A stretch of DNA of 37,552 nucleotides from Candidatus Saccharimonadota bacterium. Lineage in GTDB: Bacteria; Patescibacteriota; Saccharimonadia; Saccharimonadales; AWTP1-31. The notes under the pieces were generated by a model. That model worked only from the letters and a program-made list of their open reading frames with translations. It did not search any database and had not been told where the DNA came from. The translations under genes and the position numbers were made by a program. This document shows, piece by piece, positions 4,157-8,398 of this stretch. The stretch lies in assembly GCA_026395435.1 (NCBI GenBank), contig JAPLYT010000012.1:1-37552 (forward strand), given 5' to 3'. How positions within the stretch are numbered: position 1 is the first letter of the stretch; every line of letters starts with the position of its first letter.

Positions 4157-4395
4157 TCCCGGGTAGCCTACAAATAAGCGTGGAACAAGATGCTCCACCA
4201 GAGCTACCTAGGAAAAATCAACATTAAAATTATAATCCCGGGTAGCCTACAGATATGTGTGGAGCAAGATGCTCCGCCAGAGCTACCTGAGAAAATCGTT
4301 CGTTCACCAATATATTCCCGGGTAGCCTACAAATAAGTGTGGAGCAAGATGCTTCACCAGAGCTACCTGAGACTTATATACATACACCACAATAT
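4157..4395 (+). repeat. Three tandem ~80-bp tRNA-like units upstream of tRNA-Asn
   Basis: TCCCGGGTAGCCTACAxATAxGYGTGGARCAAGATGCTYCRCCAGAGCTACCT starts at 4157, 4236, 4316; the tRNA starts at 4396 (spacing 79/80/80). Confidence 0.9.
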
Positions 4396-4470
4396 TCCCG
4401 GGTAGCTCAATGGTGGAGCAAGAAGCTGTTAACTTCGAGGTTGTCAGTTCGAGTCTGACCCCGGGAGCCA
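4396..4470 (+). tRNA. tRNA-Asn(GTT), CCA encoded
   Basis: Acceptor TCCCGGG/CCCGGGA, D-arm GCTC..GAGC, anticodon loop CTGTTAA, T-arm GTCAG TTCGAGT CTGAC, G73 CCA. Confidence 0.93.
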
Positions 4471-4498
4471 GACCCAGCAGAGAAATAGGCAGACCAGG

Positions 4499-4690
4499 TT
4501 CCTAGACCTGTCCCTAACTTCTCTCCTTGGTCAGACAAATGCTAATTTACGGTTCGTAAGTTACAAATGTTGGAACCGTCCGAAAGGGCGGTTCTTTCAT
4601 TTAAACCCTGTAACTCGGTTCGAACCCAGCCTCTCTCGTACTGAGGGAGCAAGCAGACGAAGACCCGACCTGTTTCCTAGACCTGTCCCT
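4499..4690 (+). repeat. 17-nt direct repeat TTCCTAGACCTGTCCCT (4499-4515 and 4674-4690)
   Basis: Identical 17-mers; each sits in a local inverted-repeat context (AGAGAA..TTCTCT; TGAGGGA..TCCCTCA). Confidence 0.8.
4571..4598 (+). terminator. Rho-independent-like terminator after tRNA-Asn
   Basis: GAACCGTCC GAAA GGGCGGTTC TTTCATTT. Confidence 0.75.
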
Positions 4691-4718
4691 CAAAGATTGA
4701 GCGGTATATACTATGCTT

Positions 4719-4945: not shown

Positions 4946-5623
4946 ATGCTTTTAGGAGTGAAAAATAGCACAAAACCGTCCTTAATAAATAGGCTTCTCG
5001 CGAATAGCAGGTTCTGGATACTCGCAACAGGCATAACAATGTCATTTTTAATTGCTGGTTTTATACAACTGATGATTCCCAGCGGAACGCTTCAGCTAAT
5101 CCGTATTGAACAATCTTTTGGCTTTGTGTCGATTCTTCTGCTGTATGTAGCACTCCTGGCCTCACCACTTACTAAGGTATTTCCTAGTCCTAGTTTTAAA
5201 GATGGCTATATTCATGCAAGGCGAGCGATTGGAGTGATGGCATTCTATTACGCATTTTTACACACCTACCTAACTTTTTATAAACAGCTTAATGGGTTAA
5301 CTGGTATCCAATACTACAATTCAAAATACAGCCTTTCTTTGCTTCTCGGGACTATAGGCCTTGGGATATTACTCATTTTAACGATTACGTCACTTGATTG
5401 GGCGGTTTACACACTGAGGTTCAAAAACTGGAAGCTGATACATCGCCTCGTGTATATAGCAGGACTTACCATTCTGCTACATATCGTTATTATTGGCCCG
5501 CATTATGTTGGTCTTGGTTTTGTTAGTGCGCTGTCGTATGTTGGGGTAGCTATTTTGTTACTGCTAGAAGCGATTCGTATCCGATTATCGTATTTAAATC
5601 GCAAAAAGGTAGCACGTAAATGA
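4946..5623 (+). CDS. Ferric-reductase-like/YedZ-like heme transmembrane protein
   Basis: Multiple TMs, ARRAIGVMAFYYAFLHTYLTFYKQL, WKLIHRLVYIAGLTILLHIV (His pairs). Confidence 0.7.
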   Translation: MLLGVKNSTKPSLINRLLANSRFWILATGITMSFLIAGFIQLMIPSGTLQLIRIEQSFGFVSILLLYVALLASPLTKVFPSPSFKDGYIHARRAIGVMAFYYAFLHTYLTFYKQLNGLTGIQYYNSKYSLSLLLGTIGLGILLILTITSLDWAVYTLRFKNWKLIHRLVYIAGLTILLHIVIIGPHYVGLGFVSALSYVGVAILLLLEAIRIRLSYLNRKKVARK

Positions 5624-6156
5624 AACGAGTAATAATTTCATTCTTAGCTGTAATCTCAATATGTATTACAACTTCTCAGCCAGTTTTCGCCCATGTACTA
5701 AAGACAGATGGCACAATTGGGGCAATTTTACATATTCAGCCGGATGATAATCCAAAAAGTGGCGCACCAACCACCTATGAACTGGCGTTTAAGGATACCA
5801 ACTATCAGTTTTCAATACAAAACTGCAACTGTACAGTTACAATTCGACAGAACGACAAAACACTAGACACAGGTCCACTCATCGCTAGCAGCGCACACGT
5901 AAGTAAGAACAGGTATACATTTCAAAATCCTGGTGTATATACGCTCAACGTTTCCGGCCAGCCTACACAGCCAAATGATTTTGCACCATTCTCGTTAACT
6001 TATACAATTAGGGTTGAAGCGGGTAGAGGTAGCAAAAACCTAGATTCCTTTCCGCTGACTTTAGCCATAGGTATGGCACTCATGATAGGTCTCATTATGC
6101 TTGCAGCATATGCGATGGATCTAGGCGAAAAAGAAGATAACCATAAAAAGGAGTAA
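5620..6156 (+). CDS. Secreted, C-terminally anchored protein of the redox/metal operon
   Basis: Signal peptide, HVLKTDGTIGAILHIQPDDNP start of the mature part, CNC motif, C-terminal TM; overlaps upstream stop. Confidence 0.55.
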   Translation: MKRVIISFLAVISICITTSQPVFAHVLKTDGTIGAILHIQPDDNPKSGAPTTYELAFKDTNYQFSIQNCNCTVTIRQNDKTLDTGPLIASSAHVSKNRYTFQNPGVYTLNVSGQPTQPNDFAPFSLTYTIRVEAGRGSKNLDSFPLTLAIGMALMIGLIMLAAYAMDLGEKEDNHKKE

Positions 6157-6158
6157 AG

Positions 6159-6758
6159 ATGTTTAAAAAAATTTCAGCAAGCGTAACAGCATTTATAGCA
6201 GTATTATTGATTCCTGCAGTGGCAACAGCCCATGTTGCAGTCCAGCCAAGTGAAGTCGGCATTGGCAAAACACAAGTGTTTGGTATTAGCATACCAACCG
6301 AAAAAGAAGTACCGACTGTTGGAGTACGCATTGTGCTTCCGTCAGGTCTGCAAGAAGTTAAGCCAACCGTAAAAGCGGGCTGGCAGATTGAGACCAAGAC
6401 GACGGGCGAAGGCGACAAAAAAGAAGTTTCCGAAATTATCTGGACGGGTGGCTCGATCCCAGCCGAACAACGCGATGAATTTTCGTTTTCTGCTCAAGTT
6501 CCAGCACAAGCAACTACTTTGCAGTGGAAGGCATACCAAACATACCAAGATGGTAGTGTCGTGACATGGGACCAAACACCAACAGGAAGTGACGACGCTG
6601 AAGGCGACAAGGGCCCATACTCAACGACAAAAGTTGTAGACGATTTAGCCACTCCTGCTACAAGTACTACAAAAAATAACAATGTCACTGGGGCATATGT
6701 ACTAGCAGGAATTGCACTTATCGTTGCAATCGGTGCAATTGTAGTAAAACGAAAGTAG
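6159..6758 (+). CDS. YcnI-like (DUF1775) protein, C-terminal TM anchor
   Basis: ATAHVAVQPSEVGIGKTQVFGISIPTEKEVPTVGVRIVLP; N-terminal His after signal peptide. Confidence 0.8.
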   Translation: MFKKISASVTAFIAVLLIPAVATAHVAVQPSEVGIGKTQVFGISIPTEKEVPTVGVRIVLPSGLQEVKPTVKAGWQIETKTTGEGDKKEVSEIIWTGGSIPAEQRDEFSFSAQVPAQATTLQWKAYQTYQDGSVVTWDQTPTGSDDAEGDKGPYSTTKVVDDLATPATSTTKNNNVTGAYVLAGIALIVAIGAIVVKRK

Positions 6759-6760
6759 AC

Positions 6761-7489
6761 ATGGTTAATATATTTCGAAAATACTTCGCTCTACTACCCG
6801 TACTCTATTTGTTTGTAGCAATATTTCTTGCACGTAGCAAAGTTCAGTATGTCTATCTCGCAGCAGCAATTCTAGTCGCACTTACGTTCGCAATTAATTA
6901 CAAACGTAAGTTAAAGCCCGAAATTTTCTTGGCATATTGGATGGCAGTTCTTGCAGTATTAGGCCTTAGTGCAGCAGTCATACTCTCTATTGAGAAAGTC
7001 GAGTTGCTTGCTAACCCAAACCGTATTGCCAGCTGCAGCCTCAGCCCGATCGTTGCATGTTCGCCAGTTATAGCCAGCCCGCAATCTAGTGCATTTGGAT
7101 TCCCGAATTCATTCATCGGTATATTCGGATTTACAGCTATTTTTGTTGCTGCAATGACAATACTGGCTGGCGCGACAAAGCTTAGTAAGGTTTGGTGGCG
7201 AACATTACTCGGCGGTATTATTTTTGGTGCAGGATTTTGTACTTGGTTGTTTCATGAAGGAGTCTATGAAATTGGTAAGCTGTGTCTTTACTGCATGCTG
7301 GTATGGCTTGTTACGTTTGCACTACTCTGGCTGGTAACTGCACATAGTATCGAGAATAAATATATAAACCTTGGCGCAAAACTTAACAAGCTACTCAGTT
7401 ATAAATATGAACTTATTGCGACAACCTATCTTGTAATCTTCATTCTGTTGTTCTTCAGGTGGTCAGATTATTGGACTAGTCTTTTATAG
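6761..7489 (+). CDS. Vitamin K epoxide reductase (VKOR) family protein
   Basis: ASCSLSPIVACSPVIASPQSSAFGFPNSFIG...CLYCMLVW. Confidence 0.8.
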   Translation: MVNIFRKYFALLPVLYLFVAIFLARSKVQYVYLAAAILVALTFAINYKRKLKPEIFLAYWMAVLAVLGLSAAVILSIEKVELLANPNRIASCSLSPIVACSPVIASPQSSAFGFPNSFIGIFGFTAIFVAAMTILAGATKLSKVWWRTLLGGIIFGAGFCTWLFHEGVYEIGKLCLYCMLVWLVTFALLWLVTAHSIENKYINLGAKLNKLLSYKYELIATTYLVIFILLFFRWSDYWTSLL

Positions 7490-7520
7490 AATTAATTTGT
7501 AATAAATTATGACTAATAAC

Positions 7521-7596
7521 AGATGTAAGCTAGCATGAAGCGAGCCTATAAATGAGGTGGTAGAACTGCTTGGTTCGAATCTGGTTGCGGGAGCCA
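7521..7596 (+). pseudogene. Possible tRNA remnant (3' half)
   Basis: GGTTCGAATCTGGTTGCGGGAGCCA resembles a T-loop plus acceptor-CCA; no matching 5' acceptor strand seen. Confidence 0.35.
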
Positions 7597-7635
7597 ATGT
7601 AAAATACCTCAGCCTTTGGCTGGGGTTTTTACATT
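7595..7635 (+). terminator. Long bidirectional terminator hairpin
   Basis: AATGTAAAAxACCTCAGCC TTT GGCTGGGGTTTTTACATT. Confidence 0.8.
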
Positions 7636-7636
7636 G

Positions 7637-7797
7637 ATGTCCTGAGAATCAGGACATTCGAACTGAAAGTTCGGTCGTGAACAGCTCTCGCAGGAACTTG
7701 TTCCGAGAAAGCTGTGAAACGTGCAACTTGTTGCTGCCCTGACCCCGGTCAGCCCACCTGACAACCAGCCCGAGCTTGCTCGGACGTAGGTTGTCAG
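7637..7797. repeat. Cluster of six consecutive hairpins
   Basis: ATGTCCTGA-GAA-TCAGGACAT; CGAACT-GAA-AGTTCG; ACAGCT..GGAACTTGTTCC..AGCTGT; GCAACTTGTTGC; CTGACC-CC-GGTCAG; CTGACAACC..CCGAGCTTGCTCGG..GGTTGTCAG. Confidence 0.8.
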
Positions 7798-7819
7798 TTC
7801 GTTCATCAAGTTAGCTGGT

Positions 7820-8398
7820 TTAAAATTGGTTATTATTCGGTCGGCAATAATTAGATATTTCAGTTTCAATGGTGATATTAGTAGTGACGGGTTCATTCTG
7901 GCGAGTGACCGGGTTTGGCCAATAGTTAATTTTCTGGCAAATTGAGCCACTACTATAGGGTCGGATATAAAGTCTTTCAATACTCCTGTGCTCTTTTTTT
8001 GCATAATCAAAATTTTCGACTAATGTGAAAAGAGTTGGAGAATTATTATTTTGCCAGCCAGCTGAGTACATCAGTCTGTCAGCCGCCTCGACCATATTTA
8101 CTGTTATATTTGGGGCAGTAAATAAATCTTTAAGACTCCATTCATACCTTGTCCAAGCGTGATAGCCGTCCAGTTGGGTACTGGCTATGGTTAACTCAGG
8201 TGAATACCCCTTATCATATAGTTGTCTTCCGGTGTGTTCTTTAAAATTCAAGACTTTATATGTGGCATCGGCGTATATTGTAACGATTGGTAATTTGGAC
8301 TTTGTGGTCAGATTTTTAAATGCGATAGAGTTGAAAAATGTGTAGCCAAAGAAGCCCAACAAGGTAACCATTAGAAATATTAAAAATTTTCGTATCAT
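7820..8398 (-). CDS. Secreted/membrane-anchored protein of unknown function
   Basis: MIRKFLIFLMVTLLGFFGYTFF signal anchor; no family recognised. Confidence 0.65.
   Translation of the reverse strand: MIRKFLIFLMVTLLGFFGYTFFNSIAFKNLTTKSKLPIVTIYADATYKVLNFKEHTGRQLYDKGYSPELTIASTQLDGYHAWTRYEWSLKDLFTAPNITVNMVEAADRLMYSAGWQNNNSPTLFTLVENFDYAKKEHRSIERLYIRPYSSGSICQKINYWPNPVTRQNEPVTTNITIETEISNYCRPNNNQF

Follow-up and report, generated by a model that had tools for sequence, protein, structure and literature searches.

What is a run of six hairpins, packed between two genes, doing in the genome of a Candidatus Saccharimonadota bacterium? In the window, that is the whole 37,552-nt stretch analysed (G000:C6:1-37552, from a genome of 0.94 Mb), the run is flanked by a VKOR gene on the + strand (6761-7489) and by an ORF on the opposite strand (7820-8398). 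By using an inverted-repeat tool, we found paired arms at 7637-7645/7649-7657, 7659-7664/7668-7673, 7681-7689/7707-7715, 7739-7744/7747-7752 and 7758-7766/7789-7797, the last pair with 7770-7775/7778-7783 nested inside; the GCAA(CTTG)TTGC hairpin at 7723-7734 was read by eye from the sequence and is also present in the computed fold. The fold of 7590-7830 is far more stable than shuffles, with z scores of -6.0 as RNA and -7.3 as DNA and 0 of 200 shuffles equally stable, and 7637-7756 folded alone as DNA gave a z score of -4.8. All six hairpins proposed by the first-pass annotation were thereby confirmed at their positions. As described below, however, the cluster is one complete and one truncated copy of a repeated unit rather than one isolated ncRNA.

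Searching relatives with the cluster region returned two separate conserved things, namely a remnant at 7510-7596 and the core of the third hairpin (hairpin 3). With up to 3 mismatches allowed, the core CTCTCGCAGGAGCTTGCTCCGAGAAAG occurs 38 times in a set of 294 genomes of the order, spread over 26 of them, and the reversed pattern never occurs. A degenerate core pattern retrieved 29 stretches from the named genome collection, whose titles read Candidatus Saccharibacteria (18), “Patescibacteria group bacterium” (5), “bacterium” (5) and Parcubacteria (1), and in a search for a free phage or plasmid form, the exact degenerate pattern had 0 matches in viral_contigs. We then aligned 37 copies without internal gaps and built model R1 from them. 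This model scores 63.5 bits (E 1.2e-15) at 7661-7719 in the window and finds units in 59 of the 367 genomes of the order that are at least 90% complete. A more sensitive search of five unit-bearing genomes gave 17 (this genome), 22, 12, 32 and 8 matches, so the copies elsewhere that a BLASTN-type check had been suggested to reveal do exist, in this and in related genomes. In this genome, 11 of the 36 tRNA genes are followed by a match at no more than 185 nt, which accounts for 12 of the 17 matches. Our list of 137 distinct units was drawn from the model searches after dropping partial matches (L200, L223), 20-21-bit matches (L212, L228) and loci repeating an already listed region, identical copies being removed by script. 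A same-strand upstream tRNA was found within the examined stretch for 124 of these 137 units: 89 start at most 120 nt after the tRNA gene and cover 16 amino-acid types, 21 lie at 121-450 nt and 14 further away. At gathering score, Rfam 15 matched tRNA alone in the window and in 20 unit-type loci, and up to E 10 the hairpin cluster gave chance matches only, with nothing convincing. We found no description of these units in the open-licence PMC literature, and the excerpted text of PMC13059738 and PMC10462680 describes no such element. The element is thus undescribed in Rfam and in the open-licence PMC literature searched.

Units share a common anatomy. A copy of a tRNA V-loop/T-stem up to TTCG is followed by an insert and then by the same tRNA's 3' end to CCA, the junction being TTCG^(N)TCC in most units. 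The insert, of about 52-82 nt in 32 measured units (with one outlier of 136), holds a linker, hairpin 3, whose covarying arms are CTCTCGCAG..CGAGAAAG, and hairpin 4. Upstream of the sense copy stand an antisense copy of the tRNA V-loop/T-arm and then a loop, while the tRNA's terminator hairpin stands between tRNA and unit at the loci read. The closing 3'-end repeat runs from (A)TCC to CCA and is often followed by another terminator. Among the 89 units near a tRNA, those passing the anchor threshold were 51 with a clear 3'-end copy (at least 10 of the last 12 nt) and 38 with a clear sense copy; in 22 of the 51 units in which it could be measured, the 3'-end copy begins 18 nt ahead of the end of CCA, and T-loop position 57 is the last one of the sense copy in 24 of the 38. 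Over its last 18 nt, the local tRNA matches the unit at a mean of 14.99, compared to 9.97 for other isotypes, and the antisense copy matches the local tRNA at 9.88 versus 8.71 when permuted (0 of 2000 permutations). A clear example is found at a tRNA-Asp (L202; GATCGCCGGTTCG|..ATCCGGTCGGGCCCGCCA), both halves of which are copied exactly around the insert. MITEs are defined by terminal inverted repeats with target duplication and REP elements by a hairpin with a RAYT transposase; the units lack symmetry, and what borders them are tRNA halves, not a short target repeat. At a tRNA-Glu locus (L212 1400-1475), a 3'-end copy of the tRNA runs straight into a second hairpin-3-like sequence (GTGAGGTCACGCGCAGAAGTTTACTTCGAGCATGGC), which, from its sequence, looks as if two units had been fused by deletion.

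In the window, the tRNA concerned is tRNA-Asn, and the locus reads as follows.

4396-4470, + strand: tRNA-Asn(gtt), the tRNA owning this array (ARAGORN and Rfam)
4946-7489, + strand: cargo between tRNA-Asn and array, coding for a ferric-reductase-like membrane protein, an unknown protein of 178 aa, DUF1775 and VKOR (ORFs and Pfam)
7510-7596, + strand: the “tRNA-like remnant”, conserved right end of a 3.1 kb insertion, ending in a tRNA-Asn 3'-end copy (7574-7596)
7595-7636, + strand: terminator-type hairpin with arms CAATGTAAAA/TTTTACATTG, read as the original tRNA-Asn terminator from the order tRNA, CCA, terminator, unit seen at other loci
7637-7657, + strand: hairpin 1 of unit 1, a perfect 9-bp stem
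7659-7673, + strand: hairpin 2 of unit 1, pairing a short antisense copy (TTCGAACTGA) of the tRNA-Asn T-arm with a short sense one (AGTTCG), placed as in other units
7681-7715, + strand: hairpin 3 of unit 1, the conserved core (motif 7685-7711), supported by covariation and model R1
7723-7734, + strand: hairpin 4 of unit 1, present in the fold, with a small hairpin at the equivalent place in relatives
7739-7756, + strand: decayed tRNA-Asn 3'-end copy closing unit 1 (7637-7756), sharing CTGACCCCGG with the tRNA gene
7758-7810, + strand: unit 2, truncated after the linker and before hairpin 3, an antisense-sense hairpin in which AGGTTGTCAGTTCG (7788-7801) is identical to tRNA-Asn and is followed by TTCATCAAG

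The tRNA link noticed in the first-pass annotation was right, and it is the key to the cluster. The V-loop/T-stem and 3' end of tRNA-Asn are copied at 7574-7596, 7739-7756 and 7788-7801. The fifth hairpin (CTGACC-CC-GGTCAG) is present as proposed, but its palindrome may be incidental: it resembles a decayed tRNA-Asn 3' end, CTGACCCCGG within it (7739-7756) matches tRNA-Asn at 4396-4470, and the equivalent place in relatives is occupied by the local tRNA's 3' end. It is probably a relic of the tRNA. The sixth hairpin is the antisense-sense arm of the second unit, an arrangement found intact at two other loci (L065 and L071).

Past tRNA-Asn, 3.1 kb of redox-type genes close in the conserved right end, and because a tRNA-Asn 3'-end copy comes after them, we infer that 4946-7489 is an inserted island. 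The right end was found in 9 of 98 other genomes of the order at 73-93% identity, downstream of a tRNA-Asn in L004, L005 and L079. A reading of 7510-7596 as tmRNA was rejected, the genome having one elsewhere (C5:2748-3156). At L079 (3631-9017, in G097), a redox island also lies between tRNA-Asn and right end, about 5 kb apart, with genes that are thioredoxin-like, CcdA-like and methionine sulfoxide reductase-like as read from their translations; its right end is 93% identical to that of the window although the host belongs to another family. On the other side, some 85 bp ahead of the intact gene, there is a partial 5' copy of tRNA-Asn at 4310-4350 (TATTCCCGGGTAGC ... GTGGAGCAAGA), so that duplications are present on both sides of the locus. 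A motif around CCTAGACCTGTCCCT is repeated after tRNA-Asn at 4490-4525 and 4660-4695, and a similar GACCAGGTTACTAGACCTGG directly follows the tRNA-Asn of G052; judged by such sequences, the left side of the locus may hold another conserved element. Finally, GGTTCGAACCCAGCCTCTCTCGTACTGAGGGAGCAAGCAGACG at 4615-4665 resembles a distant unit (GGTTCG, hairpin) and has no model R1 match in the window.

We then asked whether the stems are maintained. In the 37-copy alignment, 85.7% of 481 cells of the hairpin-3 structure were paired and 10 of the 13 pairs had changed on both sides, with 73 double-change cells compared to 25.8 in shuffles. This signal was lost when the partner was slid by 1-3 columns. 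Stem conservation in relatives, the lack of which the first-pass annotation had named as part of its refuting condition, is thus found together with covariation, which shows that a single strand, DNA or RNA, folds at some stage. In contrast, the argument that repeated CUUG loops reveal a plus-strand RNA fails, as the CTTG loop varies and is CTAG, CTCG, TTTG, TTCA or CTGG in relatives. Both strands of the units fold equally well in terms of folding energy. Of the 137 distinct units, 116 are exactly 59 nt long, and wobble pairs were counted in these over all 13 pairs: A.C was slightly above G.T (58 vs 45), as the two outermost pairs and pair 24-52 frequently fail to form or are out of register. 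In the 10 better pairs, a set chosen after the 13-pair result was seen, the observed/expected ratio was 0.28 for G.T and 0.11 for A.C, compared to 0.51 for G.T in tRNA stems.

Units also occur in arrays. At 19 of 100 tRNA loci we counted at least 2 units (2-5), with five at a tRNA-Gln (L216), and at several loci cargo gaps of 0.8-5.3 kb separate them. The genes between units include a Fic protein (SoFic model), a type I methylase with its specificity subunit, a DUF2268 protease and a two-domain KaiC-like ATPase, among others, and a pilin-like gene follows the unit at the tRNA-Glu of L212. No recombinase was found among 10 cargo proteins scanned, and no cargo gene was common to two different tRNA loci among those examined. 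Two tandem modules are nearly identical at L208. The prediction that older 3'-end copies decay along an array was rejected, since the mean match was 14.99 for first and 14.95 for later copies, without decay with distance from the tRNA.

Within one genus, a 3'-end copy (at most 2 mismatches in 16 nt) lies downstream of 17 of 32 tRNAs in G029 versus 0 of 29 in G052, and blast of the flanks established that the tRNA loci compared in G029, G065 and G052 are the same loci. At tRNA-Arg(cct), G029 has 332 bp that include a unit and G052 has 84 bp that do not; the tRNA-Glu locus measures about 1.1 kb versus 0.13 kb, and the tRNA-Pro locus about 6.5 kb, including a serine-recombinase island, versus 0.19 kb. 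At tRNA-Met, where the upstream flank is shared and the downstream one unmatched, G029, G065 and G052 carry 1, 2 and 0 units, respectively. At tRNA-Met as well as at tRNA-Ser(gga), it is the distal G065 unit to which the G029 unit aligns, so that the extra G065 units are tRNA-proximal (2 of 2). Decayed unit pieces remain at some G052 loci, and part of the copy-number difference is therefore loss.

Beyond what was observed (unit anatomy, fit to the local tRNA, covarying stems, tandem arrays, cargo and copy-number differences at syntenic tRNAs), we propose, with a probability of about 60%, that cassette arrays anchored at tRNA genes have integrated at the T-loop and that the units are the structured ends of their modules. 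A module would consist of an extra tRNA 3' end reaching from T-loop position 58/59 to CCA, a terminator, sometimes cargo, and the structured unit, itself made of the antisense T-arm copy, the sense copy ending in TTCG and the insert of about 52-82 nt with hairpins 3 and 4. Modules would enter the T-loop of a tRNA gene, where the incoming tRNA 3' end would restore the gene and the old one would be displaced downstream of the module's own unit. The unit would be the recombination site and would act folded as a single strand, its antisense-sense hairpin rebuilding, by analogy with attC sites and the CTX phage site, a double-stranded T-arm half-site beside the crossover. As the antisense copy ends about at the crossover, the fold would rebuild one half-site only. 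Modules would perhaps integrate as folded single strands, and a recombinase acting in trans, possibly the single Xer-type one, would catalyse insertion. Site-specific insertion at the T-loop fits because of the sharp junction, the matched tRNA halves, the tandem modules and the tRNA-proximal gain. Against the proposal count that the search for a recombinase linked to units found none, that many near units keep no clear 3'-end or sense copy, that the two strands fold alike, that later 3'-end copies match as well as first ones, that different tRNA loci among those examined share no cargo gene, and that neither a circular module nor a viral contig was seen. Among the three options of the first-pass annotation, namely a novel ncRNA, a fold-back recombination site and a MITE-like element, the fold-back site hence fits better, given the duplicated tRNA ends, the tandem arrays and the cargo. 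The RNA that it preferred is not established, because loops vary, strands fold alike and wobble pairs are rarer than in tRNA stems.

Which enzyme could act on such sites? A large serine recombinase was rejected, as it shows no association with units (40 of 59 unit genomes versus 241 of 367 overall) and is absent from G152 with its 32 units. Tyrosine recombinases are mostly single and near-universal (58 of 59 unit genomes versus 353 of 367), therefore they do not explain the patchy spread of units and were discarded as a marker of them. Exactly one PF00589 protein was found in each of G000, G029, G012, G152 and G175, and that of G000 is Xer-sized (306 aa). No integrase lies within the element, units at most 120 nt from a tRNA having no space for a gene. 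Tyrosine integrases are the usual tRNA integrases elsewhere; in these genomes, serine recombinases appear to be common ones. Their genes end in or beside a tRNA-Lys (L082 2179-3801), a tRNA-Gly (L217 14589-16193) and a tRNA-Pro (L241 8822-10423), and in the contig of the window a gene for a 571-aa large serine recombinase (L238 11816-13531) runs into the 3' end of a tRNA-Glu. This last island, of 13 kb, also codes for a large ATPase and a replication-relaxation protein and is a probable mobilizable element.

Serine-recombinase islands, where present, sit between tRNA and unit, which raises the possibility that units are leftover attachment ends of such islands. Genes with Resolvase and Recombinase domains indeed adjoin the tRNA at L082, L217 and L238 (and at L241 by sequence). 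However, the unit stands beyond the far tRNA-end copy of the island, as if it had been there beforehand, and together with the missing association across the 367 genomes this makes such an origin quite improbable. Alternatively, tRNA 3' ends may have been duplicated in tandem passively, through slippage or unequal recombination, and have decayed later, the hairpins being by-products. This would account for the tRNA pieces, their tandem occurrence and the twin modules of L208; yet one 59-nt core whose stems covary is shared by loci of 16 amino-acid types and many families, and the insert breaks the T-loop at one preferred place, so that we consider this explanation very hard to sustain.

A more serious competitor, though in our view still unlikely, is that units are structured RNAs, transcribed by read-through or separately, that mimic the T-arm and 3' end of tRNA and might, for instance, take part in the processing of tRNAs, serve as a decoy that diverts enzymes binding tRNA, or sense the adjacent tRNA via the antisense arm. 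The covarying stems, the location of the unit on the tRNA's strand, the retention of G.T over A.C and the persistence of exact tRNA 3'-end copies are all consistent with an RNA. On the other hand, a terminator hairpin separates tRNA and unit at the loci read, G.T tolerance is about half that of tRNA stems, the two strands fold equally, loop sequences vary and Rfam gives no match, while a mobile element would better suit the patchy occurrence in 59 of 367 genomes and the arrays in which unrelated cargo lies between units.

If units are indeed recombination sites in tRNA-anchored cassette arrays, about a third of the tRNA genes of this genome (11 of 36) would carry a gene-capture port, and the cargo of such ports in relatives would include a pilin-like protein, a Fic-type defence protein and parts of restriction-modification systems. 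The genomes of Saccharibacteria are very small, and little is known about the ways in which genes are acquired there; the units point to an unrecognised way of gene capture at tRNA genes. Such arrays would be a second natural case of cassette arrays on structured sites, with tRNA genes as anchors, and could help in reading how folded-site recombination evolved from Xer-type enzymes. More speculatively, Saccharibacteria might run integron-like gene capture without a dedicated platform, with many tRNA anchors, single-stranded folded sites mimicking the T-arm, a tRNA 3' end renewed at each insertion and a host recombinase or another enzyme in trans. It also follows that tRNA 3'-end repeats in these genomes should not always be equated with a classical island.

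Among known systems, tycheposons restore an interrupted tRNA 3' end and leave a displaced copy, and attC sites carry core boxes GTTRRRY / RYYYAAC at the crossover; these boxes are absent from the consensus of 116 units. Going by the excerpted text on integron gene cassettes with attC sites (PMC2727003, PMC8946536), the likeness lies in tandem cassettes that each end in a structured site with the crossover at its 3' end, in cargo made up of single accessory genes (here protease, Fic and restriction-modification parts) and in possible single-strand folding. Arrays of cassettes separated by related sites, which define integrons, were found at 19 of 100 tRNA loci. Units are nevertheless anchored at T-loops of many tRNA isotypes, unlike integrons at one attI; here, no dedicated integrase was found, and the unit mimics the local tRNA and carries a large insert.

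With tRNA-integrated genomic islands, as far as the excerpts on Islander (PMC4383910) describe them, units share the restoration of the interrupted tRNA 3' end and the displaced copy, and a direct repeat of the 3' end alongside an intact tRNA is present in 51 of 89 near units. They differ in being about 150 bp long and multi-copy over many isotypes per genome; their insert is structured and conserved, and the module lacks an integrase gene. The single-stranded attP of CTX phage used by host Xer recombinases, as portrayed in parts of PMC3089051 and PMC4246890, offers an analogy: once folded, a single strand would restore a double-stranded site resembling the target, on which a host recombinase would act in trans; however, the target here is the tRNA T-arm and not dif, units lack phage genes and Xer use is putative. 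The Xer-flanked modules of Acinetobacter, as presented in parts of PMC7399989, are likewise small gene modules without a recombinase of their own, but they are flanked by Xer sites whereas the ends of the units are structured tRNA mimics. Altogether, the units work most like integron cassettes or tRNA-integrated islands but fail or leave open defining features of each, and we file them as a variant of tRNA-targeted integration.
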